53,351 bases of DNA from Crocinitomicaceae bacterium (GTDB lineage: Bacteria; Bacteroidota; Bacteroidia; Flavobacteriales_D; Crocinitomicaceae): contig JABURP010000120.1 of assembly GCA_014762645.1 (NCBI GenBank), positions 1 through 53,351 on the forward strand. The letters run 5' to 3'. Under the pieces are notes generated by a model. That model ran no database searches. It worked only from the letters and a program-made list of their open reading frames with translations, and was not told the origin of the DNA. Positions 5,196 through 16,035 of this stretch are shown here, in pieces (position 1 is the stretch's first letter; each line of letters begins with the position of its first letter). Made by a program: the position numbers and the translations under genes.

Positions 5196-6515
5196 TTGGA
5201 CACGTATACACTCATCATAGGTATTTCCGGAATTGTAATTATTTCGTTCTTTTTTAACATCATTGCCAAAAGGACGAACATTCCCAGTGTGCTATTATTG
5301 ATAGCATTGGGAGTAATTATCAAGCAATTTGTTCCGGATAAGTTTAACGCAGATGTATATGCAAACCTCAGTACCCTGGAGATTGTGGGGAATGTAGGTT
5401 TGGTTATGATCGTATTAGAAGCGGCGCTTGACTTAAAACTTGAGCGAGAGAAGCGTAAATTGATTATCAATTCATTTTTAGTGGCACTTATATCACTTGT
5501 GGCTACGACCCTTTTATTGGCGTGCATTATTTACTACTTCGTTCCTAACGCTAATGACTTTATGAAGAGCGTAGTGTATGCTGTACCACTATCCATTATG
5601 AGTTCGGCCATTATTATTCCTTCTGTTGGCGGATTGACCGGCAAAAAGAAAGAATTTATGGTATACGAAAGCACCTTCTCAGACATATTGGGAATTATGG
5701 TGTTTTATTTTCTCATTGGAGTAGAGGATGGACAAGGAGGAAAAGAGATTGCTCTGAGTATTGGGTTAAGTATTCTTGTAACGATTGTGGTTTCAATAGT
5801 ACTTGCGTATCTTCTTGTGTATATATTTCAACGGCTAACTTCCCAGGTTAAGCTGTTTTTGGTGATTGCTATCCTCATGTTGATGTACGCGTTAGGGAAG
5901 AAGCTTCACTTGTCTTCACTTTTAATCATACTGGCATTTGGGCTGGTGCTGAATAATGCAAGCGTTTTCTTTAGGGGGAAACGTTTGAGAAACTTGATTA
6001 ATGAAGAAAAAGTACAACCTGTTCTACACGATTTTCACATATTAACGCTTGAGTCTGCATTTGTTATCCGTACTTTTTTCTTTGTCATATTTGGAATGTT
6101 CATAACGCTGGAGGGGATATTTAATTTAACTGTTGCATTAGTTAGTGCGGGAATTATAGCAGCACTTTATATTGTTCGCTTCCTTGTGTTAAAACTGGTA
6201 GAAAGAAGGGATATTGTACCTCAGTTATATCTGGCGCCAAGAGGGTTAATTACTATTTTATTATTCTTTGTCATTAGCGCTCATGATGAGTATGTGATCA
6301 AGGATTTTGATCCTGGAATTTTATTGTTTGTAATCTTAATTTCAAGTCTTGTAATGACATGGGCCTTGATAAGATACAGGGGAGAAAAAGTTGCGGATGT
6401 TTTGCTTTCCCAGTTGCCTAGCAGAAAAGTAGATGAGGACGGTGATGGTATCAACGACTCAACGGAAGAAAATGTTGAAAGCAACGTAGAAAAGCAAGAT
6501 TTCAATCAGTTTTAG
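5196..6515 (+). CDS. cation:proton antiporter (CPA family, NhaP-like)
   Basis: 439 aa with about twelve hydrophobic segments and a CPA-type core (IPSVLLLIALGVIIKQ near residue 29, then IVLEAALDLKLE and IMSSAIIIPSVGG). Family members exchange Na+ or K+ for H+ across the inner membrane in pH and ion homeostasis. The start is a TTG at 5196, three bases after the sensor kinase stop, so translation is probably coupled. The cytoplasmic tail carries DEDGDGIND (413-421), which looks like a calcium-binding loop of the thrombospondin type-3/dockerin kind. Its stop codon overlaps that of the convergent rhomboid gene by four bases. Ion specificity is not visible. Confidence 0.85.
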   Translation: MDTYTLIIGISGIVIISFFFNIIAKRTNIPSVLLLIALGVIIKQFVPDKFNADVYANLSTLEIVGNVGLVMIVLEAALDLKLEREKRKLIINSFLVALISLVATTLLLACIIYYFVPNANDFMKSVVYAVPLSIMSSAIIIPSVGGLTGKKKEFMVYESTFSDILGIMVFYFLIGVEDGQGGKEIALSIGLSILVTIVVSIVLAYLLVYIFQRLTSQVKLFLVIAILMLMYALGKKLHLSSLLIILAFGLVLNNASVFFRGKRLRNLINEEKVQPVLHDFHILTLESAFVIRTFFFVIFGMFITLEGIFNLTVALVSAGIIAALYIVRFLVLKLVERRDIVPQLYLAPRGLITILLFFVISAHDEYVIKDFDPGILLFVILISSLVMTWALIRYRGEKVADVLLSQLPSRKVDEDGDGINDSTEENVESNVEKQDFNQF

Positions 6516-7288
6516 TTAGTTTCTGAAGTATTGCCGTTGTCCTTTTGATCTTTTTTATTTGATGTGTCGCCCTTTTTTTCAACTTCAACCTTTTTTGGAA
6601 CAATGGTGTAGTTTACGATAATTCTCGGTTCGTGATCGGCATGTGCCTTAGGTTGATCCTTCCAGTACTCACCTACAGGTTCAATGCCCATCTCTTCTTC
6701 AATTTCGTACTGAAGCTTTTTAGGCTGAGGCCCTTTTTTTCTAAGGATAAATGCCACGGTTATACCACCAATAAGGCCAAAGGCATGCGCCTCCCACGAT
6801 ACTCCGGGTTGATTGGGGAATATTCCCCAAACCATACTTCCATACAGAAAAATAACCACCAACGAAATGGCCGCCACCCTCATGTTCTTTCTAATAAATC
6901 CACTAAAAACAAGAAATGAAGTGAGTCCGTAAATAACGCCACTCATTCCAACGTGATAAGATTCTCGTGCTAAAAACCACATAGTGACTCCCGTAAAAAG
7001 ATAAATGAAAACGAAAGCACGTAAGGCTATAGTTCGGTAATGATAAAACAACATCCAACTCAACACAAAGGTGGGTATTGAATTGTTTATAATATGCGAA
7101 AAGTCTTTGGTGCTGTGAATAAACGGAGAAGTAAATATACCCACTAACCCCTCAATTTTACCAGGGTACAAGCCGTACCTGTATAGATGTAGTTCAAAAG
7201 CATAATCAAAGAAAAACACCACCCACATCAGGGCAACTATAGTCAAAGAAATAGCAAAGGATATTCGGGTGATCTTCTTCTGTAGCAT
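6512..7288 (-). CDS. rhomboid family intramembrane serine protease
   Basis: 258 aa with six hydrophobic segments. The catalytic pair is visible: S116 in GMSG (114-117) and H168 in EAHAFGLIGG. HIINNS near 65-70 is the usual oxyanion-supporting HxxxN region. Rhomboids cut within or beside membrane segments of substrate proteins. A hydrophilic C-terminal tail of about 75 residues, lysine-rich and ending in low-complexity sequence, follows the core and should be cytoplasmic or periplasmic depending on topology. The gene is monocistronic and convergent with the antiporter. Confidence 0.9.
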   Translation of the reverse strand: MLQKKITRISFAISLTIVALMWVVFFFDYAFELHLYRYGLYPGKIEGLVGIFTSPFIHSTKDFSHIINNSIPTFVLSWMLFYHYRTIALRAFVFIYLFTGVTMWFLARESYHVGMSGVIYGLTSFLVFSGFIRKNMRVAAISLVVIFLYGSMVWGIFPNQPGVSWEAHAFGLIGGITVAFILRKKGPQPKKLQYEIEEEMGIEPVGEYWKDQPKAHADHEPRIIVNYTIVPKKVEVEKKGDTSNKKDQKDNGNTSETN

Positions 7289-7413: not shown

Positions 7414-9258
7414 TTATTCAACCGTTACTGACTTAGCAAGATTTCTCGGTTGATCGACATTACATCCGCGCATAACAGCAATATGATACGATATCAACTG
7501 GAATGGAACTGTTGCTAAAATTGGAACCAGTAACTCGTCCGTCTCCGGTATTTCAATGTAGTGGTCGGCAATATCTTTAACAATGGTATCCCCCTTAGTG
7601 ACAATAGCAATGATTTTACCTTTTCTGGCTTTCACTTCCTGAATATTGCTCACCACTTTTTCGTAATTAGGCCCTTGTGTGGCAATTACAAATACTGGCA
7701 TGTTTTCATCAATCAATGCAATAGGACCGTGCTTCATTTCTGCCGCCGGATAACCCTCCGCATGGATATAGGAGATTTCTTTGAGTTTAAGCGCGCCTTC
7801 TAATGCAATCGGGAAACAGCTTCCTCTTCCAAGGAAAAGTGCATTTGCTGCATCTTTATAGTTGTCCGCGATTCCTTTGATATAATCATTACTGGTGAGC
7901 AGATATTCAATTTTTTCAGGGATCGCTTCCATTTCATTGAGAAGGTTCTGAAAACGGGTTTGATTAATAGTGCCGCGTTTCTTGGCCAGTAACATTGCCA
8001 TCATAGCCAGGATAGTAACCTGTGTGGTAAAAGCTTTAGTAGATGCTACTCCTATTTCAGGTCCCGCATGTGTATAAGAACCTGCATCTGTGACACGTGA
8101 AATAGATGATCCTACAACGTTTACTATACCAAGTAGGGTTGCGCCCTCTTCCTTCGCCATTTTAAGTGCAGCTAACGTATCAGCCGTTTCTCCGGATTGT
8201 GAAATGGCAATCACTACATCATTAGGCCGTATTATTGGATTTCTGTACCTGAATTCCGAGGCATATTCTACCTCTACTGGAATTCGTGCAAGATCTTCAA
8301 TTAGATATTCACCTACTAAGCCGGCATGCCACGAAGTTCCGCAAGCAATAATTACTATTCGGTCAGCATTGGCTATTTGATTTTCATAGTCTCGAATACC
8401 CCCCAGCGCAATCCAGCTTTCTGCCGCATTCAAACGCCCACGGAAGGAATCGTGTATCGCACGAGGCTGCTCGTAAATTTCTTTGAGCATGAAATGGTCA
8501 TATCCTCCTTTTTCAAGCTCTTCTAATTGCATTTCAAGTTCCTGAACGTACGGAGATACTTCAGTATTTCCAATGCTAATAATACGCAATCCGTTTTTTC
8601 GATCAACAATAGCAATCTGTTCATCTTCCAAATACACCACATTCTTAGTGTATTCTACAATTGGTGTTGCATCTGAGGCTACGTAGTACTCGTCTTCACC
8701 TAAACCAATCACCAGTGGTGAACTTTTTCGTGCCGCTATAATCTTATCCGGCGAATCTTTAGAGATCAATACTATGGCATAAGCACCATGTACTTCTTTT
8801 AAAGCCATTCGAACAGCTTCTTCTATTGAAACCTGGCTGTTTTCCTTAATCTCTTCAATTAAGTGAACAAGAACTTCTGTATCAGTTTCAGTTTTGAATT
8901 CATGGCCCCTTTTTGTGAGCTCCTTTTTGATGATCTCGTAGTTTTCTATAATTCCGTTGTGAACCAATACAATGTTTTCATCTCCACTAAAATGTGGATG
9001 TGCATTGACATCATTGGGCTCTCCATGTGTTGCCCACCTGGTGTGCCCGATCCCCACGGTACCTTCTGTAGAAAAATCATTAGCAAAATCTACTAAATCC
9101 TGTACTTTCCCCTGGCGCTTATATACATTTAAAATTTTACCGTCCTGGATGAGCGCAACTCCAGCACTATCATAACCGCGATACTCCAATCTGCTTAATC
9201 CTTTTATGAGAATTGGATATGCTTTCTTGTCTCCTATGTATCCAACAATTCCACACAT
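7414..9258 (-). CDS. glmS: glutamine--fructose-6-phosphate aminotransferase (isomerizing)
   Basis: First committed step of UDP-GlcNAc synthesis for peptidoglycan and lipopolysaccharide: fructose-6-P plus glutamine gives glucosamine-6-P plus glutamate. 614 aa, full length. The N-terminal glutaminase starts with catalytic Cys2 (MCGIVGYIG) and contains GHTRWATHGEP; two SIS domains follow (CGTSWHAGL and ISQSGETADT near 300-355, then LGRGSCFPIALEGALKLKE near 475). The C-terminal DQPRNLAKSVTVE is the conserved GlmS end. It is the last gene of a three-gene unit, 11 bases after DUF4270. No glmS ribozyme is visible in this short junction. Confidence 0.97.
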   Translation of the reverse strand: MCGIVGYIGDKKAYPILIKGLSRLEYRGYDSAGVALIQDGKILNVYKRQGKVQDLVDFANDFSTEGTVGIGHTRWATHGEPNDVNAHPHFSGDENIVLVHNGIIENYEIIKKELTKRGHEFKTETDTEVLVHLIEEIKENSQVSIEEAVRMALKEVHGAYAIVLISKDSPDKIIAARKSSPLVIGLGEDEYYVASDATPIVEYTKNVVYLEDEQIAIVDRKNGLRIISIGNTEVSPYVQELEMQLEELEKGGYDHFMLKEIYEQPRAIHDSFRGRLNAAESWIALGGIRDYENQIANADRIVIIACGTSWHAGLVGEYLIEDLARIPVEVEYASEFRYRNPIIRPNDVVIAISQSGETADTLAALKMAKEEGATLLGIVNVVGSSISRVTDAGSYTHAGPEIGVASTKAFTTQVTILAMMAMLLAKKRGTINQTRFQNLLNEMEAIPEKIEYLLTSNDYIKGIADNYKDAANALFLGRGSCFPIALEGALKLKEISYIHAEGYPAAEMKHGPIALIDENMPVFVIATQGPNYEKVVSNIQEVKARKGKIIAIVTKGDTIVKDIADHYIEIPETDELLVPILATVPFQLISYHIAVMRGCNVDQPRNLAKSVTVE

Positions 9259-9269
9259 AATGCTGAGTT

Positions 9270-10637
9270 TTAGTAGTCTGTATACGTGACCTCAAGCCTG
9301 GCTTTGTCTTTAAGCGTGCTTTCCGGCCCATTAAAAATAGTTCTTTCTATAGATGATGCAAAGAAACTGGTCGTATAAATTCTGAAGCCATTATTTGCCA
9401 CGGTACCGTTTAAGATGCCCTGTATTTCCAATGTCATAATAAATCGGAATTCTTTGTTAGCTTGATCGTAAATAGGCAACGCGTTTATTGACTGATAATC
9501 TCGGGTGAAATCTGAGATACTGTCATTTATAACGCGAGCAATAAACAATCGCGTAGAAGGATCAAACCCATCTTGCTCAAAATCCTGCACGGGTAATACG
9601 AGTTCAGCTTTATTGATAATCTTTTTGTTTTCGTCCCCAAGTGAATCTTTGTTGAGGTCCATTATATGCGGGATGTGTACAATTGCCCAGGCACTTCCTG
9701 CCTGTGTATAAAATTGATCCTGCCCCTGAGTAGAATCCGTTAAAACCGCTTCAACATCTGTACCAGCTCGGCCAAAGTCAATCTTGTTATATCTGGCTGC
9801 TGAACTATTTATAGGGAAATCGTATTCTTTCAGAGTTGGGTCACTTACTTCATGAAAATAAAGTGTCAACTTAGACAATGAACTCTCCAGTGCAAAGTAA
9901 AGCACACCTCCCTGTCCAACAGCTAATCCTGAGCCGTTAACCTTCAGATAGATTCCTTTAAATGCATTCACAAATAATTCATCCGTCGCCATATTGCCAG
10001 CTTCATTAATAGAAACAAGTTTGTCTCCTAATAATGTAGAATCTAATCTAATCCGCAGATGTGCTGCAAGCGTATCTCCATTTGCCAGTGGAACATCTGA
10101 CACTACGTCTGGAGAAATAACTTCTTCTCCTATCGGAACAAGGTTTGTGGCGATATAATTGGGTGTCGTTGAGGTATGGTATTGCTGGTCTTCACGGATC
10201 AGGTCATCTGTGATTTCATAAGCTTCTACAGTTATGTCATCAAGGTTGCCATACCACTTTATGCCTGTATAGGCCAGTGACATAACCACAGAATCTACAA
10301 TAACATCACCCGGACTTGCTGAAAAGGAAGGGTTTGAAGAAGACAACCTAACTTGTGTAACGATTCCACAATCTACGCTTCCAAAAACCGGATCTCTATA
10401 ATATCCTAACAAATTGATGGCGGTTTCATCACTTGGCATTGGAGTAAGTTCATCCGTATAGGTGATGAGTGAAAACGTATCGATTGTCGTCACATCCAAT
10501 CCTTCTCCTTGCAATGATTGCCCAACGTCTGTTTCTTCTTTACGGCAAGACCACAAAACGAAAAGCGATATAAAAAAAGTAGCGGAAAGTTGAACAACTC
10601 TCCGCTTACTTATTATTGAAATTTTGTTGTTTGTCAT
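9270..10637 (-). CDS. DUF4270 family lipoprotein
   Basis: 455 aa starting with a charged N terminus, a hydrophobic segment and a lipobox ending at C31 (VLWSCRKEE), so probably exported and lipid-anchored. The stretch after it (QGEGLDVTTIDTFSL, then NLLGYYRDPVFG) is the typical start of DUF4270 proteins, a Bacteroidota family of unknown function predicted to be outer-membrane associated. The ATG overlaps the upstream gene's stop as TAATG, implying translational coupling. Placement between a GT5-like gene and glmS suggests an envelope or surface-polysaccharide role, which is an inference. Confidence 0.85.
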   Translation of the reverse strand: MTNNKISIISKRRVVQLSATFFISLFVLWSCRKEETDVGQSLQGEGLDVTTIDTFSLITYTDELTPMPSDETAINLLGYYRDPVFGSVDCGIVTQVRLSSSNPSFSASPGDVIVDSVVMSLAYTGIKWYGNLDDITVEAYEITDDLIREDQQYHTSTTPNYIATNLVPIGEEVISPDVVSDVPLANGDTLAAHLRIRLDSTLLGDKLVSINEAGNMATDELFVNAFKGIYLKVNGSGLAVGQGGVLYFALESSLSKLTLYFHEVSDPTLKEYDFPINSSAARYNKIDFGRAGTDVEAVLTDSTQGQDQFYTQAGSAWAIVHIPHIMDLNKDSLGDENKKIINKAELVLPVQDFEQDGFDPSTRLFIARVINDSISDFTRDYQSINALPIYDQANKEFRFIMTLEIQGILNGTVANNGFRIYTTSFFASSIERTIFNGPESTLKDKARLEVTYTDY

Positions 10638-11458
10638 TAATTCTCTACTAATTCTTCTATGATCTGGTCATAAAACTCGTCAACAGGTTTAACGCAAGAT
10701 TCCTCAGAATAGTATTCCAGGAAAGGCGTGCCGGTTGTCTGAATTTCTGAGAAGATATCCTCATCAATGCTTTCAGACCCCTGAATAACTCCGTCGGCAA
10801 CATTTACGGCCATTTTGTTAAGAGTAACAAAGTCTACGTCTTTCAACATTTCAATGTCCCCTTCATCAAAACCGTCAAATTTAAGTTTATTGTAGAAGTT
10901 TGAATCCCAATTTTTGTTAAATCCATTATCATATACTGAGTAGATGACTTTAGTATCTTCAAAATGAGGGTCGTTCTGATACAATTTTTTAATGTAAAGC
11001 GGCGTTAAAGCGGTCATCCAACCATGACAGTGAATGATGTCAGGTTTCCAACCTAATTTTTTAACAGTTTCTAAAACTCCTCTACCAAAGAACATAGAAC
11101 GTTCGTCATTATCTTCAAACGGCTCACCTTTTTCGTTTGTAAGTGTTGCTTTCCTCTTGAAAAAATCTTCGTTATCAATGAAGTAAACTTGAATTTTCGC
11201 CTGAGGTACCGAAGCAACTTTAATGATCAGTGGATGATCAACGTCGTTTATGATCAGATTCATACCGGACAAACGAATTACTTCGTGCAGTTGGTGTCTT
11301 CTTTCATTGATGCAACCGAAACGAGGCATGAAAGCCCTGATTTCTTTTCCTGCTTCCTGAATCCCCTGCGGTAATTTACGTGTTGTACTTGCTATGTCTG
11401 ATGCTGGTAAAAATGGAGCGATTTCTTGAGAGATAAATAGAACTCTTTTCTTTTCCAT
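10637..11458 (-). CDS. truncated GT5 'glycogen/starch synthase' relative, probably non-catalytic
   Basis: 273 aa from the ATG at 11458 (MEKKRVLFISQEIAPFLP). It aligns by eye with the N-terminal GT5 domain of bacterial glycogen synthases: the start, FMPRFGCINERRHQ near 45, VYFIDN near 90 and DIIHCHGWMTALTPLY near 140. Two things are missing: the KTGGL loop that binds ADP-glucose (here PASDIAS at 18-24) and the whole C-terminal nucleotide-binding domain. A true glycogen synthase has about 470-500 residues. I recognise this as a short form widespread in Bacteroidota; a glycogen-synthesis role is doubtful. No glgB or glgC is in the window. It is first in the operon with DUF4270 and glmS and has a good promoter. 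Confidence 0.75.
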   Translation of the reverse strand: MEKKRVLFISQEIAPFLPASDIASTTRKLPQGIQEAGKEIRAFMPRFGCINERRHQLHEVIRLSGMNLIINDVDHPLIIKVASVPQAKIQVYFIDNEDFFKRKATLTNEKGEPFEDNDERSMFFGRGVLETVKKLGWKPDIIHCHGWMTALTPLYIKKLYQNDPHFEDTKVIYSVYDNGFNKNWDSNFYNKLKFDGFDEGDIEMLKDVDFVTLNKMAVNVADGVIQGSESIDEDIFSEIQTTGTPFLEYYSEESCVKPVDEFYDQIIEELVEN

Positions 11459-11484: not shown

Positions 11485-11515
11485 CAAAATTACGAAAAAA
11501 ATGGCGAATATTCAA
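11485..11515 (-). promoter_or_regulatory. promoter of the GT5-like/DUF4270/glmS operon
   Basis: Read on the minus strand: TTG (complement of 11513-11515), 20 bases, then TAATTTTG (complement of 11485-11492). This matches TTG-N17..23-TAnnTTTG. The -7 box ends 27 bases before the ATG at 11458. Confidence 0.65.
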
Positions 11516-11525
11516 CGCTAAAGTA

Positions 11526-11533
11526 TAGATTTG
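11526..11533 (+). promoter_or_regulatory. -7 box (TAGATTTG) for panC
   Basis: Perfect TAnnTTTG 33 bases before the ATG at 11567. A possible in-frame TTG start at 11531 would lie inside this box, which argues for the downstream ATG. No TTG element at the usual distance is evident. Confidence 0.5.
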
Positions 11534-11566
11534 TCGGTTGCTTCAACCAATTTTGAACCTCATAAA

Positions 11567-12412
11567 ATGATCGTTGCAGAGCATATTCAACAGCTCAAAA
11601 AAGCCATTAACCATAAAAAAAATGCCAATCCTAAGGGAGTTATCGGCTTCGTTCCAACCATGGGAGCACTTCATAATGGCCACCTTCAATTAATAGAAAA
11701 AGCGTCACAAGAGTCAGACATAGTGATAGTTAGCATTTTTGTGAACCCCACTCAATTCAACGATCCGGAAGATCTTAAAAAATATCCGCGGACCATTAGT
11801 GCTGATATTGAAAAGTTAGAAAAAAGTAATTGTGACATCCTGTTTTTACCACATGAAAAAGAGGTATATCCGGACGGAATTAATTCGTATAAAATTGATT
11901 TTTCAGGTCTTGATAAGGTCATGGAGGGAAAATACCGGGACGATCACTTTGTTGGGGTAGCCATGGTTGTTGAACGACTTTTTGATATTGTACAGCCAAA
12001 CAAAGCCTTTTTTGGATTAAAAGACTTTCAACAAGTTGCTATTATTAAGCATTTAGTACGTGTCAGACAGATAGATGTGGAAATTGTGCCGGTAAATATC
12101 GTTCGTTCACCAGAGGGGCTTGCACTTAGTTCCAGAAACCAACTGCTGTCAAAAGAACAAAAGGAAGACGCTTTAATAATCTACAATACGCTCCTTTTTG
12201 GAAAAAGCCTGGCAAAGGAGTACGACAACACAGCGGACATCCTCAGACACATGAAAGCATATTTTGATAAAGGCAGTCTAAAGCTGGAATATATGGAAAT
12301 TGTGGATCCGAATACATTGAAACCATTACAGAGCCTGGAACCTGGTGCACATTGTTGCATTGCTGCTTATTGTGGAGAGGTAAGACTAATTGATAATATG
12401 CAAATTCGTTAA
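11567..12412 (+). CDS. panC: pantoate--beta-alanine ligase (pantothenate synthetase)
   Basis: Condenses pantoate and beta-alanine with ATP to pantothenate, the last step before the CoA branch. 281 aa from the ATG at 11567. The nucleotide-binding motif GFVPTMGALHNGHL lies at 27-40 with the two histidines H36 and H39; VSIFVNPTQFN follows, then FGLKDFQQ and ALSSRN. I chose 11567 over an upstream TTG (11531) because the latter falls in the promoter box. Divergent from the GT5-like gene. panD, commonly adjacent in related genomes, is not here. Confidence 0.95.
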   Translation: MIVAEHIQQLKKAINHKKNANPKGVIGFVPTMGALHNGHLQLIEKASQESDIVIVSIFVNPTQFNDPEDLKKYPRTISADIEKLEKSNCDILFLPHEKEVYPDGINSYKIDFSGLDKVMEGKYRDDHFVGVAMVVERLFDIVQPNKAFFGLKDFQQVAIIKHLVRVRQIDVEIVPVNIVRSPEGLALSSRNQLLSKEQKEDALIIYNTLLFGKSLAKEYDNTADILRHMKAYFDKGSLKLEYMEIVDPNTLKPLQSLEPGAHCCIAAYCGEVRLIDNMQIR

Positions 12413-12430: not shown

Positions 12431-14401
12431 ATGCGATTTTGCTTACTCCTATTATTGACGTTATTCTTTTCTGCATCACATAATTCTTTTGCTGGTGAGA
12501 AGATCGATAGTCTTGAACAATTGCTCGCAACCAACATACCGGATACATCCAGGGTTCTTGTTTACTCAGAACTTTGCTGGGAATATCGGATAGTGGACCA
12601 GAAAAAAGCCTTGAAGAGTGGACACCAGGCGGTTAATCTGGCCAGAAAATCAGATTTTAAACGCGGACTGGGAAATGCCTTAAACGATCTTTCGATCATC
12701 TATATTGATAAAGGAAGCTTAGACACCGCAGTTGTATTACTTGAGGAAGCAAAAACAATTCGTGATGAATTAAACGACGGACCTGGTCTGGCCGCCATCC
12801 ACAATAAGCTTGGTATAATTTACGAGCACCTCGTAAAGCTCGAAGAAGCTATGGTCAATCACATGGCAGCGTTGGAATATTATGAGTCCGTTGGCAACAA
12901 ACGAAACATGGGGTTTTGTCTGAACAATATTGGAAATGTCCATTTTAAACTAAAAAATTACGAGAAAGCAAATGAAATCCATAATCAGGCACTACAAATC
13001 CGGTTGTCAATAGATGACTTTTATGGTGTTGCAGGGAGCCACTCAAATCTGGCCAACTTAAAAATGAACATGGGAGATACTACCCAGGCAATATACCACT
13101 ACAAAGAAGCGATTAAAGTTTATCGAAAACATGAATTTGATAATGACCTTGCCGTAACGCTCAACAATTTAGGAACACTCTATATTGGGCAGGGGGAAAT
13201 AAACAAAGCAGAAGAGGTGATTACTGAAGCCTATGAGATTCGTAAACGACTGAATGACGGAAGAGGAATTTGCTCATCCTCAATATTGCTGGGTGAAATT
13301 GCAACTGAAAAAGGGCAGTACAATTCGGCACTTCGGTATTTACACACTGGTCTTAACAAGAGTATTGAAAGTGGCTTTCGCAATAAGGAGAAAGGGGCCT
13401 ATGAAAAACTAGCCAAATTGCACTTAAAGCTCAACAACGCCGATAGTGTTTACCACTATTATAGTTTGTTTTTTAGCATAGAAAAATCACAATACGAGGA
13501 GAATCTGAATCAACAGGTGCTGGAACTACAAACCGTATATGAAACAGAGAAAAAAGACAGAGAGAATGAGCGCCTGGCTCGCGAAAAAGCGGAAGAAAAA
13601 CAGCTAAGAGCAGAAGCAGAACTCAAAGTAGCAAACAGGAACAACTGGATTATTGTAATAACCGGCATCACCTTTATTTTGATCTTACTGGGGTTATTTC
13701 TCTATCAACGTAAAATGAAAATCGCACAGGAAGAGAAAAACAAGGCTGTGCTGGACGAAAAACAAAAAGGACTTGAGGCAGTTTTTGATGCTACCGAGGA
13801 AGAAAGGCAACGAATTGCCAAAGACCTTCATGATGGCGTTGGGCAACAGATGAGTGGATTAAAACTCGCATGGGAGAATCTTTCCATTGAGTTAAAACAG
13901 AAATCTATTAAAGAGTCGGAAAGATTAGAAGAACTTTCCGGGGTGCTGGACGAAACAGCCCAGGAGGTTCGGGAAATCTCCCATCAAATGATGCCGAAAG
14001 TCCTAAAAGAGTTTGGTCTTGTGCCTGCCATTGATGAAATGCTGACGAAATCGCTAAAACACACAAAATTGAGCCATGAATTTGAACACTTCAACATCAA
14101 TGACCGATTTACAGATCGAATTGAGATAAGTTTGTACCGCATAGCTCAGGAGCTCATCAATAATGTGATCAAGCATTCTGGCGCATCAACGGTGTCCGTA
14201 CAGTTGTTTATGAATAAAGAACAACTAATTCTAATTGTCGAAGACAATGGTTCCGGTTTTGAACAGGATGATACTGACGGACACGGACTGCTGAATATTA
14301 AATCCAGATTGAACACCATTAACGGTGAGGTGAATTATGAAGCAAGCACTCAAAGCGGAACAATAGCGACAATAAGAGTCGATCTTTCTCAAACTGCCTA
14401 A
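12431..14401 (+). CDS. TPR-containing sensor histidine kinase (NarX/HisKA_3 type)
   Basis: 656 aa with an N-terminal signal peptide (MRFCLLLLLTLFFSASHNSFA), about seven tetratricopeptide repeats over roughly 35-370 (for example SNLANLKMNMGDTTQAIYHY), a coiled coil (370-400), one membrane segment (about 403-423) and a cytoplasmic kinase. The phosphoacceptor is H467 in AKDLHDGVGQQ (HisKA_3); the N box is ELINNVIKHSG near 575 and a G box is DNGSGF. TPRs therefore sit in the periplasm as the sensor. The gene follows panC by 18 bases, and a cognate-type LuxR response regulator lies 1 kb downstream. Confidence 0.92.
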   Translation: MRFCLLLLLTLFFSASHNSFAGEKIDSLEQLLATNIPDTSRVLVYSELCWEYRIVDQKKALKSGHQAVNLARKSDFKRGLGNALNDLSIIYIDKGSLDTAVVLLEEAKTIRDELNDGPGLAAIHNKLGIIYEHLVKLEEAMVNHMAALEYYESVGNKRNMGFCLNNIGNVHFKLKNYEKANEIHNQALQIRLSIDDFYGVAGSHSNLANLKMNMGDTTQAIYHYKEAIKVYRKHEFDNDLAVTLNNLGTLYIGQGEINKAEEVITEAYEIRKRLNDGRGICSSSILLGEIATEKGQYNSALRYLHTGLNKSIESGFRNKEKGAYEKLAKLHLKLNNADSVYHYYSLFFSIEKSQYEENLNQQVLELQTVYETEKKDRENERLAREKAEEKQLRAEAELKVANRNNWIIVITGITFILILLGLFLYQRKMKIAQEEKNKAVLDEKQKGLEAVFDATEEERQRIAKDLHDGVGQQMSGLKLAWENLSIELKQKSIKESERLEELSGVLDETAQEVREISHQMMPKVLKEFGLVPAIDEMLTKSLKHTKLSHEFEHFNINDRFTDRIEISLYRIAQELINNVIKHSGASTVSVQLFMNKEQLILIVEDNGSGFEQDDTDGHGLLNIKSRLNTINGEVNYEASTQSGTIATIRVDLSQTA

Positions 14402-14466
14402 GGCATAAACCGCTGAGTCACAAACCTTTTTTGTCGCTGACGCGTTTATCTCCAACAAATGGATTT

Positions 14467-15297
14467 ATGAAAAAGTTTAGTCTTCTCTTGCTAGTTAGTT
14501 TGCTTACACAGTTATCGATAGCACAAAATATGATTCCCAACCCGGACTGGGAAATTGGGCCCGTGGATTCTTCAGACCCATTTACCGGATGGAATAGCAA
14601 TGGCTCACCAAACGAATGGGCTCCTATTGCAACACCTGACAGAATCGTCTACGGCAGTCCGGCTATTTCAAGAGACGGACATCCACCCTATTCTGGAAAT
14701 GCCTATTGTGTATTTTACGGCCCGCAATTTTCAGAAGGAGGAAGGTGTGCGCTAACTTACCCTATTGAAACTGGCAAAACATATTGCTTGAGCGCTTGGT
14801 TAGATGTTGACGACAACTTTGACAATGGTCCCGGACGAATGCAGTTTATGTTTGATACGGACACGATTAATACGCCATTTGTTACCAACGCAGGCGATTG
14901 GCAGTTTTTTGACACTACTTTTACCGCTACTGGCTATTCAGATAGTTTATATCTATTTGCAGACGGCGAAAACTTGATGAAGATTGATTATATGATTATG
15001 GATACTGTGGGATGTTCTTCGGGTCAGGCGGCTACCATTCAAGAACAAACAGAGAATATCTTCTCCGTTTTTACAAATACCGCAAATAATGAACTCATCC
15101 TTTCACTAAACGAAATCCCAACTACACCTATTCAAATTGCTGTTTATGACATTTTAGGAAGAGAAACCTATTCCTTTGTCATACCTGCAGGCGTACTTAG
15201 CCACAATATTAACACCGCAAAAATTACACCTGGCGTTCATGTTATCATGATGAGTTATCTAGGGAAGGAATACAGCCACAAAGTCTTTATAGAATAA
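14467..15297 (+). CDS. secreted protein with T9SS type A sorting domain
   Basis: 276 aa from the ATG at 14467, chosen because a signal peptide follows directly (MKKFSLLLLVSLLTQLSIAQ); an ATG at 14431 would bury it. Residues about 20-190 look like a beta-rich carbohydrate-binding type jelly roll (NPDWEIGP, SGNAYCVFYG, WQFFDTTFTATG), with no enzyme motif I recognise. The last 75 residues (IAVYDILGRETYSF, then GVHVIMMSYLGKEYSHK) fit the C-terminal signal used by type IX secretion for export and surface attachment. It lies between the sensor kinase and the response regulator genes. Confidence 0.82.
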   Translation: MKKFSLLLLVSLLTQLSIAQNMIPNPDWEIGPVDSSDPFTGWNSNGSPNEWAPIATPDRIVYGSPAISRDGHPPYSGNAYCVFYGPQFSEGGRCALTYPIETGKTYCLSAWLDVDDNFDNGPGRMQFMFDTDTINTPFVTNAGDWQFFDTTFTATGYSDSLYLFADGENLMKIDYMIMDTVGCSSGQAATIQEQTENIFSVFTNTANNELILSLNEIPTTPIQIAVYDILGRETYSFVIPAGVLSHNINTAKITPGVHVIMMSYLGKEYSHKVFIE

Positions 15298-15360
15298 CTT
15301 CTGAAAACCTCTCCATCAATACAGTTGATTTATCTCATGTTCTGGATTTCTGAATTTGAA

Positions 15361-15368
15361 TATATTTG
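15361..15368 (+). promoter_or_regulatory. -7 box (TATATTTG) for the response regulator
   Basis: Perfect TAnnTTTG ending 16 bases before the ATG at 15385, suggesting that the regulator can be transcribed apart from the kinase. No TTG at standard spacing. Confidence 0.42.
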
Positions 15369-15384
15369 AATTACAGATTGCTAC

Positions 15385-16035
15385 ATGAGTCAAAAAAGGA
15401 TCCTGTTAGTTGATGATCATCAACTTATTATAGATGGTTTACGCGGTTTTATTGAAATGGAACCCGATTATAAAGTGGTGGGCGAGGCGAATAATGGAAA
15501 TGAAGCTATTCGCTTAGCAGAAATTCTTCAGCCGGACGTTATTTTAATGGACATAGAAATGCCGGAGGTAAGTGGTATTCAGGCCTCCGAGGAAATTAAA
15601 CGAACCCACTCACAAATAAAGGTGATTATTATTTCCATGCATCAAGAGAAAGAGCTGATAAAAAAATTGGTAGAAAGAGGGATAGACGGATACCTTTTGA
15701 AAAACTCATCCAAGGAAGATGTTCTCAGTGCAATTCAAACTGTCCTGGAAGATCAACCGTATTTTTCTCAGGACGTCACCGATTCATTACTGAACAAAAG
15801 CAAAACTACCAACAGCAACAGTGCAGATGTGGCAACCTTGGCCAGTCTGACTGAAAGAGAAATTGAAATTCTGAAACTCGTTGCAGAAGGGCTAACCAAT
15901 AAAGAAATAGGAGACCATCTATTTATTAGTCACAGAACGGTAGATACCCACCGAACGAATTTGATGAAGAAACTGGATATTTGTAATGTGGCTGGCCTTA
16001 TTCGTTTTGCCTATAAATCAGGTTTGATCCAATAA
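15385..16035 (+). CDS. LuxR/NarL-family response regulator
   Basis: 216 aa. Receiver domain with acidic pair D10/D11, phosphorylation site D56 (VILMDIEMP) and the conserved lysine in GYLLKN near 109. The C-terminal LuxR helix-turn-helix runs from LTEREIEILKLVAEG (about 152) through NKEIGDHLFISHRTVDTH. Cytosolic transcription factor expected to be phosphorylated by a HisKA_3 kinase, and the TPR kinase upstream is exactly that class, so they are probably a pair. Its targets are unknown; the T9SS gene lying between the two is a candidate. Confidence 0.93.
   Translation: MSQKRILLVDDHQLIIDGLRGFIEMEPDYKVVGEANNGNEAIRLAEILQPDVILMDIEMPEVSGIQASEEIKRTHSQIKVIIISMHQEKELIKKLVERGIDGYLLKNSSKEDVLSAIQTVLEDQPYFSQDVTDSLLNKSKTTNSNSADVATLASLTEREIEILKLVAEGLTNKEIGDHLFISHRTVDTHRTNLMKKLDICNVAGLIRFAYKSGLIQ

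Follow-up and report, generated by a model that had tools for sequence, protein, structure and literature searches.

What does a protein named after glycogen synthase do once it has lost the donor-sugar-binding half of the enzyme, and what is its gene doing at the head of a run that continues with a DUF4270 gene and glmS? The question is raised by a protein of 273 residues encoded in a stretch of 53,351 nt from a Crocinitomicaceae bacterium (the window hereafter), for which an earlier note had proposed a repurposed protein rather than a role in glycogen synthesis. As the best explanation of the whole we favour a retired glycosyltransferase that now works in the cytosol, without catalysis, as a binding or regulatory protein, with a probability of about 0.5. 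The relevant features of the window are as follows.

10637..11458, minus strand: protein of 273 residues with only the N-terminal domain of GT5 enzymes, apparent first gene of a bamH operon (PF08323, AF2 model, structure alignment with 6gne_A)
9270..10637, minus strand: DUF4270 lipoprotein, BamH homologue (PF14092, E 2.6e-39; NF053686 BamH_fj; PDB 9n2d_C)
7414..9258, minus strand: glmS, third gene in the run (TIGR01135, E 1.6e-252)
11531..12412, plus strand: panC, divergent neighbour (divergent at 61/76 homologous loci)
11485..11515, minus strand: promoter-like TTG-N20-TAATTTTG, also written TTG-N20-TAnnTTTG
11393..11407, minus strand: PASDI in place of KTGGL, residues 18–22 (alignment with full-length relatives)
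11150..11332, minus strand: residues 43–103, segment with a gain of conservation after domain loss (R53, H58, R62 and K80 in 42/42 short rows)
11018..11032, minus strand: HCHGW, residues 143–147, derived from HC[HN]DW of the enzymes (alignment)
10643..10693, minus strand: C-terminal helix, residues 256–272, probable match to the terminal crossover helix of glycogen synthases (AF2 model and structure alignment)

Domain content and gene neighbours in the window

The 273-residue protein matched PF08323, the GT5 N-terminal domain, over residues 5–239 (E 2.7e-52, 178.3 bits against a cut-off of 22.7), and this was the sole Pfam family above its cut-off. The Pfam scan detected no C-terminal glycosyltransferase domain of the PF00534 type, the NCBIfam GlgA/starch synthase models all fell far under their cut-offs, and no signal peptide was apparent on inspection of the sequence. 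As the earlier note had stated, the KTGGL loop is gone: residues 18–24 read PASDIAS, against KTG[GS][LV] in 19/19 linked-type full-length relatives (see below). The AF2 model of the protein (pLDDT 87.5, pTM 0.89) aligned with 6gne_A at Z 26.9 and 2.6 Å over 252 residues, model 2–269 against chain 23–515, and also spanned both ends of 1rzu and 2qzs (Z 23.7–26.9 over 243–252 residues across the GT5 structures). The terminal helix of GT-B enzymes completes their N-terminal domain (PMC11046441, figure legend). We infer from the end points and aligned lengths, which are what the structure aligner reports, that the last helix of the GT5 remnant matches the terminal crossover helix of glycogen synthases. 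The remnant appears to share with GT5 GlgA (1rzu, 2qzs and 6gne) this helix as well as the N-terminal Rossmann domain and PF08323, but it has no second Rossmann domain and no KTGGL, carries HCHGW instead of HC[HN]DW, and does not conserve the TIHN/QG and TVS motifs. The claim that the C-terminal half is missing is therefore correct for the second Rossmann domain, but apparently not for the crossover helix, and since this helix seems to have been kept, the loss looks in the model like the excision of a domain.

The operon position was borne out, with the DUF4270 gene and then glmS, 11 nt further on, lying downstream on the same strand. The stop codon of the remnant does overlap the DUF4270 start by 1 nt (TAATG) in the window, but such an overlap is rare among homologues (1 nt in 5/80, 4 nt in 1/80); the spacing to the next ATG is short at many loci. 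The promoter-like motif, which we take to be of the Bacteroidota type, occurs within the window itself no more often than chance would allow (two found, 1.56 expected). Among homologous upstream regions, however, it was present with a spacing of 18–22 in 37/71, whereas shuffled sequences gave a mean of 0.47 and two in-gene control regions 0/80 each. A rhomboid-family gene follows glmS (window 6512–7288, minus strand; PF01694, E 2.6e-16), and its protein gave tblastn matches (E 1e-3) at only three of 80 homologous loci (L001, L003 and L004). At 12431–16035 on the plus strand, ahead of metK, lie three genes in a row which, judged from their translations, encode a 656-residue TPR-sensor-kinase-like protein, a 288-residue secreted-looking protein and a 216-residue LuxR-type response regulator.

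The DUF4270 protein of the window is BamH, a subunit of the outer-membrane assembly (BAM) complex. It matched the solved Bam H chain 9n2d_C in a PDB profile search (E 1.6e-10), and the NCBIfam model NF053686 BamH_fj at E 1.6e-30, under the cut-off of that model. According to passages of the BAM papers (PMC12578637 and PMC12611786), BamH is Bt4306 in B. theta and Fjoh_0823 in F. johnsoniae, BamH and BamG of the latter are essential for growth, and the fjoh_0824 promoter was employed in a depletion system. Locus numbering and conserved gene order suggest that BT_4307 and Fjoh_0824 belong to the GT5-remnant family, in which case the promoter of that depletion system would apparently be the remnant's own. 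BamH and BamG, a surface lipoprotein and a β-barrel, are neighbours of the remnant, which is itself not among the BAM subunits named in those passages (PMC12578637 and PMC12611786). The word 'glycogen' occurs 0 times in the main texts of both papers; going by its legend, Extended Data Fig. 3 of PMC12611786 maps the bam genes and may show the neighbour. A term search of the main texts of the essential-gene papers PMC3547785 and PMC4072883 found no mention of the gene, and among the papers listed in a literature search none tied the remnant to bamH.

Could the protein still be a glycogen synthase, working as a single domain? Its database names say so, BT_4307 is annotated 'putative glycogen synthase', and a passage of one paper takes BT_4307 as a potential glycogen synthase. 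Glycogen synthesis is, however, very unlikely because there is no donor domain, no KTGGL and no GlgC over the cut-off. In a search of the source genome for GT5 and GlgC, one GT5 was over the cut-off and no GlgC was (best 72.2 bits, cut-off 424.9); a classical glycogen route was rejected on this result. Moreover, a single sentence in a review gives Bacteroidetes a GT3 glycogen synthase and a conserved fragment of a GT5 gene. This fragment evidently belongs to the same family as the remnant, although its gene order, BamH link, origin and function are absent from the passages of the review that concern it. We give almost no weight to a single-domain synthase, and the 273-residue protein is almost certainly not a glycogen synthase of any kind.

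Gene order in Bacteroidia and in outgroup lineages

A profile of 70 rows (alignment A1: the window and 69 of 80 homologous loci, with L017, L019, L045, L056, L030, L034, L036, L067, L069, L070 and L079 left out) had exactly one match in 137/139 Bacteroidia genomes, in open frames of 247–336 aa, and exactly one in 208/217 once incomplete genomes were admitted. Of the nine genomes without the gene, seven are <90% complete; the others are G462 (98% complete, 410 contigs) and G438 (95% complete, 300 contigs). The 80 loci came from a named genome collection and 77 of them had room downstream. At 76 of these 77 testable loci a DUF4270-like ORF in the same orientation lies directly downstream and opens no more than 300 nt away, as counted with a profile (dufx) trained on 21 other loci (16 outside the class and five inside), none from the 80. 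glmS is found within 2.3 kb downstream at 38/69. Four Bacteroidia loci chosen as apparent exceptions (L172, L173, L175 and L176) have no DUF4270-like ORF within 10 kb. No BamG-like ORF was found at any of the 80 Bacteroidia-type loci, and an HAD gene of the gmhB-like type was found downstream at 0/71 of those with 3.2 kb of room.

Short spacing to the next ATG at many loci, together with the decayed catalytic motifs, would suit a gene in decay, or a leader ORF whose sole use is to start bamH translation. The sequence is nevertheless held too firmly for that. The alignment has 46 invariant columns over its 70 rows and a mean column identity of 65%, and the best tblastn segments have a median identity of 58% to the protein of the window (80 loci), above the 46% of panC (64 loci); the values for DUF4270 and glmS were 28% (49 loci) and 69% (41 loci). 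The conservation list comprised the window and all 80 loci, including L017, L019, L045 and L056, whose frames run past their stop and which are also in short.hmm. The rarity of the 1-nt overlap and the persistence of the gene with no adjoining bamH-like gene at the four exceptions and at L216, a locus discussed below, also argue against this reading, which we consider extremely unlikely. The 273-residue protein has very probably been repurposed rather than left to decay.

The short and the full-length family were both sought in fifty genomes that we selected by hand from the sample of the phylum. Outside Bacteroidia, a DUF4270-like gene accompanies 20/23 short-form loci, and each of these 20 also has a FadL-like gene; of the three remaining loci, L160 stops at a contig edge. 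The profile of the FadL-like family matched 9hiv_F at 1.1e-80 and the Bam G chain 9n2d_B at 2.7e-71, and by these profile matches the family is BamG; the member at L168 matched no Pfam family and takes its identity from the match of the BamG profile to the PDB chains. Among the linked-type full-length GT5 loci a DUF4270-like gene lies downstream in 17/19 (2.2 kb off in L196), an HAD phosphatase gene, presumably of the GmhB type, in 16/19 and a BamG-like gene in 15/19, with bamH-like and bamG-like genes both present in 14/19; these loci were selected among the top PF08323 matches, and for 17 of the rows linkage was itself the reason for grouping them, so the counts hold for this selection and cannot be read as a survey. 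Pfam HAD families were matched in both gmhB-like proteins scanned. Among the other full-length GT5 loci, L187, L188, L195, L208 and L209 had no DUF4270-like match, and L186, which is outside the alignment, had a BamG-like but no DUF4270-like match; the flanks of Bacteroidia's own full-length GT5 proteins (L134, L136 and others) were too short for the neighbour test.

We call the outgroup DUF4270-like proteins BamH-like because, in a profile–profile comparison, they align with the Bacteroidia family over 375 columns (E 1.2e-30); the dufx-versus-A2 profile comparison shares L168 and was not relied upon. Against the PDB the outgroup profile found no BAM chain and two weak unrelated matches, and of four proteins scanned against Pfam, that of L156 matched DUF4270 below the cut-off and that of L168 matched CBM96 weakly. 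The 17/19 and 20/23 counts draw in part on an earlier DUF4270 profile, whose training set consisted of 61 neighbours at the 80 loci and of 21 others, which the profile afterwards recovered; L153, L163, L164, L179, L185–L190 and L192–L211 were outside its training.

New here is the full-length glgA-like gene that heads a glgA – gmhB-like – bamH – bamG cluster in outgroup lineages. These full-length enzymes (L192, L197, L198, L205 and others) occupy the same first-gene position as the remnant, are its close relatives in the tree and share its R53/H58/R62 segment, but unlike the remnant they keep KTG[GS][LV], have frames of 488–570 aa and contain PF00534 where scanned (L198). The outgroup clusters, taken with the absence of BamG-like and HAD genes at Bacteroidia-type loci, indicate that the cluster is probably older than the domain loss, and that gmhB and bamG left later. 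The bamH- and bamG-like genes adjoin each other behind the glgA-like and gmhB-like genes at L192, L197, L198, L203–L206, L211 and L168.

Domain loss and the residues that were kept

The 63-row tree unites all 31 short forms of the main clade (100/100), with the linked full-length enzymes and the Chlorobia type as their neighbours; this clade lost its C-terminal Rossmann domain in a single event. The two trees used 73 of 80 and 63 of 81 rows, others being dropped for redundancy or speed, the KTGGL columns were excluded, and the placement of L203 is uncertain. In the family f39, represented by two genera (L168 and L212), short forms of 290 aa with KTSAI or KTGSI, HCNDW and a gmhB-like gene are nested inside the full-length rows (96/88), which suggests that the domain was perhaps lost a second time there; a single origin of all short forms was not rejected (AU p 0.058).

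Conservation was compared in one alignment of 42 short, 19 linked full-length and 15 other full-length rows (L168 omitted) as the mean frequency of the top residue. From linked full-length to short rows it falls at residues 15–25 (0.93 to 0.48), 141–150 (0.87 to 0.61), 169–185 (0.79 to 0.42) and 221–240 (0.73 to 0.34), and rises at 43–70 (0.64 to 0.74), 71–103 (0.52 to 0.71) and 126–140 (0.67 to 0.77). The rise is the more telling because the short rows cover a wider range of lineages. The first glycine of KTGGL is G in 0/42 short rows, and the G of HCHGW replaces D in 31/42. Thus the proposal of a repurposed protein was well founded: KTGGL and the nucleotide domain are lost throughout the short family, the source genome has no second GT5 or GlgC over the cut-off, and conservation was gained in a different segment. 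Within that segment, R53, H58 and R62 are already present in 17/19, 17/19 and 18/19 linked full-length rows, compared with 2, 1 and 0 of the 15 other full-length GT5 rows, so that the 43–103 segment predates the domain loss. Apart from the last three residues, the AF2 model is least certain at 51–70 (pLDDT 64 and 68), which would suit a mobile, exposed segment.

The residues E12, D116, N117 and H143, conserved in the enzymes, are kept in 40 to 42 of the 42 short rows, and some pocket may therefore remain. Alg13/Alg14 is an example of a split GT-B enzyme, and the remnant could likewise be one half of a transferase whose nucleotide-binding half is supplied by a separate protein. The four kept residues would agree with this, as would the N-domain and closing helix, which look intact in the model, but KTGGL and the HN motif are lost, and none of the 20 PF00534 matches in the source genome (19 over the cut-off, all in open frames of 325–428 aa) is a lone C-half. 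This search for a partner covered C-halves of the PF00534 family. We regard a split enzyme as very unlikely.

Three full-length loci of the Chlorobia type (L180, L181 and L207) have RTSAL or RVS[AS]L at the position of KTGGL, followed by an HAD gene. They carry R53/H58/R62 and have no DUF4270-like neighbour, so the residue pattern is not tied to BamH. None of the 135 genomes with a DUF4270 match, out of 392, belongs to f18, which we take to be Chlorobia from the bchL-like neighbour in L180.

Possible functions of the remaining domain

The analysis shows the domain content, the missing catalytic loop, one copy of the gene in nearly all Bacteroidia, the order of the genes and a conservation that has moved to residues 43–103. 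On the explanation that we favour, a full-length GT5 transferase would have headed the ancestral glgA – gmhB-like – bamH – bamG cluster, and would then have lost its nucleotide-binding Rossmann domain and KTGGL loop while retaining the N-domain together with the former C-terminal helix that closes it. What remained would be cytosolic and non-catalytic, and that it works in a binding or regulatory mode seems to us about as likely as not. The charged segment (R53, R54, H58, E59, R62, K80 and R102) may serve to bind either a partner that is itself conserved or some anionic ligand, for example a nucleotide sugar or a sugar phosphate. In free-living species, co-expression with bamH might keep envelope sugar supply in step with outer-membrane assembly, a specific coupling that we consider rather doubtful, and the protein would have an additional job basic enough for survival in a 0.49-Mb genome. 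On a bolder reading, a core Bacteroidota protein could have arisen when a glycogen-synthase-like enzyme had its catalytic domain excised, perhaps repeatedly, since the 43–103 face of the N-domain already had a second function. This would be the function of a sensor or adaptor in the cytosol that connects sugar metabolism with the building of the envelope (bamH/bamG, gmhB and glmS), and it would be basic enough for a half-megabase genome; this, too, is doubtful.

The ligand could also be cobalamin. Passages on two B12 photo-probe screens in B. theta list BT_4307 as one of 16 proteins enriched in both, which would make the family cobalamin-binding or B12-responsive and counts against our explanation. 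However, the same list includes trigger factor, aspartokinase and a porin, the family membership of BT_4307 rests on a locus tag beside BamH (Bt4306), and a B12 role in a 0.49-Mb genome seems unlikely. The enrichment would fit another ligand or non-specific capture equally, and we treat it as a lead only, towards a function that we hold to be most improbable.

The link to the envelope, one of the options named in the earlier note, is stronger as an association than that note could know, in that the neighbour is BamH, the two genes go together across the phylum and BamG joins them in outgroups. Such an association does not by itself establish a function. A dedicated BAM or envelope factor would act from the cytosol on the synthesis or export of BamH and BamG and have no role beyond outer-membrane assembly. 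The DUF4270-like ORF directly downstream at nearly every testable Bacteroidia locus, the joint presence of bamH-like and bamG-like genes at 20/23 outgroup short-form and 14/19 full-length linked loci, and the essentiality reported for both proteins in F. johnsoniae are consistent with such a factor. Against it stand the Chlorobia-type loci, the four Bacteroidia exceptions and reduced genomes. G510 is a single contig of 489,825 bases (0.49 Mb; 21% G+C in the 14 kb read) that keeps a 262-aa copy (locus L216), which shares 97 identical residues with the protein of the window; HCHGW has become SCQGW there, and much of the 43–103 pattern is retained. In the 14 kb around this copy there is no DUF4270-, BamG- or HAD-like ORF. 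A published BLAST search found no BamG in any endosymbiont Bacteroidota, as stated in part of the BAM papers (PMC12578637 and PMC12611786), yet a 'glgA', which may or may not be the short form, is listed among the genes of the symbiont Uzinura. Retention of the gene in a 0.49-Mb genome without an adjoining bamH argues against a purely BAM-specific role, and we consider a dedicated BAM factor unlikely.

The favoured reading is a retired transferase turned binding or regulatory protein. The same gene exists in full length, with a domain excised and in a reduced genome, a natural series from enzyme to non-enzyme in which the role of a glycosyltransferase N-domain without its donor-sugar-binding half becomes a testable question. 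The gene heads the cluster of bamH, whose product is a newly found BAM subunit and is essential in F. johnsoniae according to the passages cited above. As a near-universal single-copy gene of Bacteroidia that bears the name of a glycogen enzyme, and that has once been so read in print (BT_4307), it can mislead metabolic models. At the reduced-genome locus (L216, 6928–9073, minus strand), the short GT5 gene lies approximately 80 nt behind a gene on the same strand whose translation is enolase-like.
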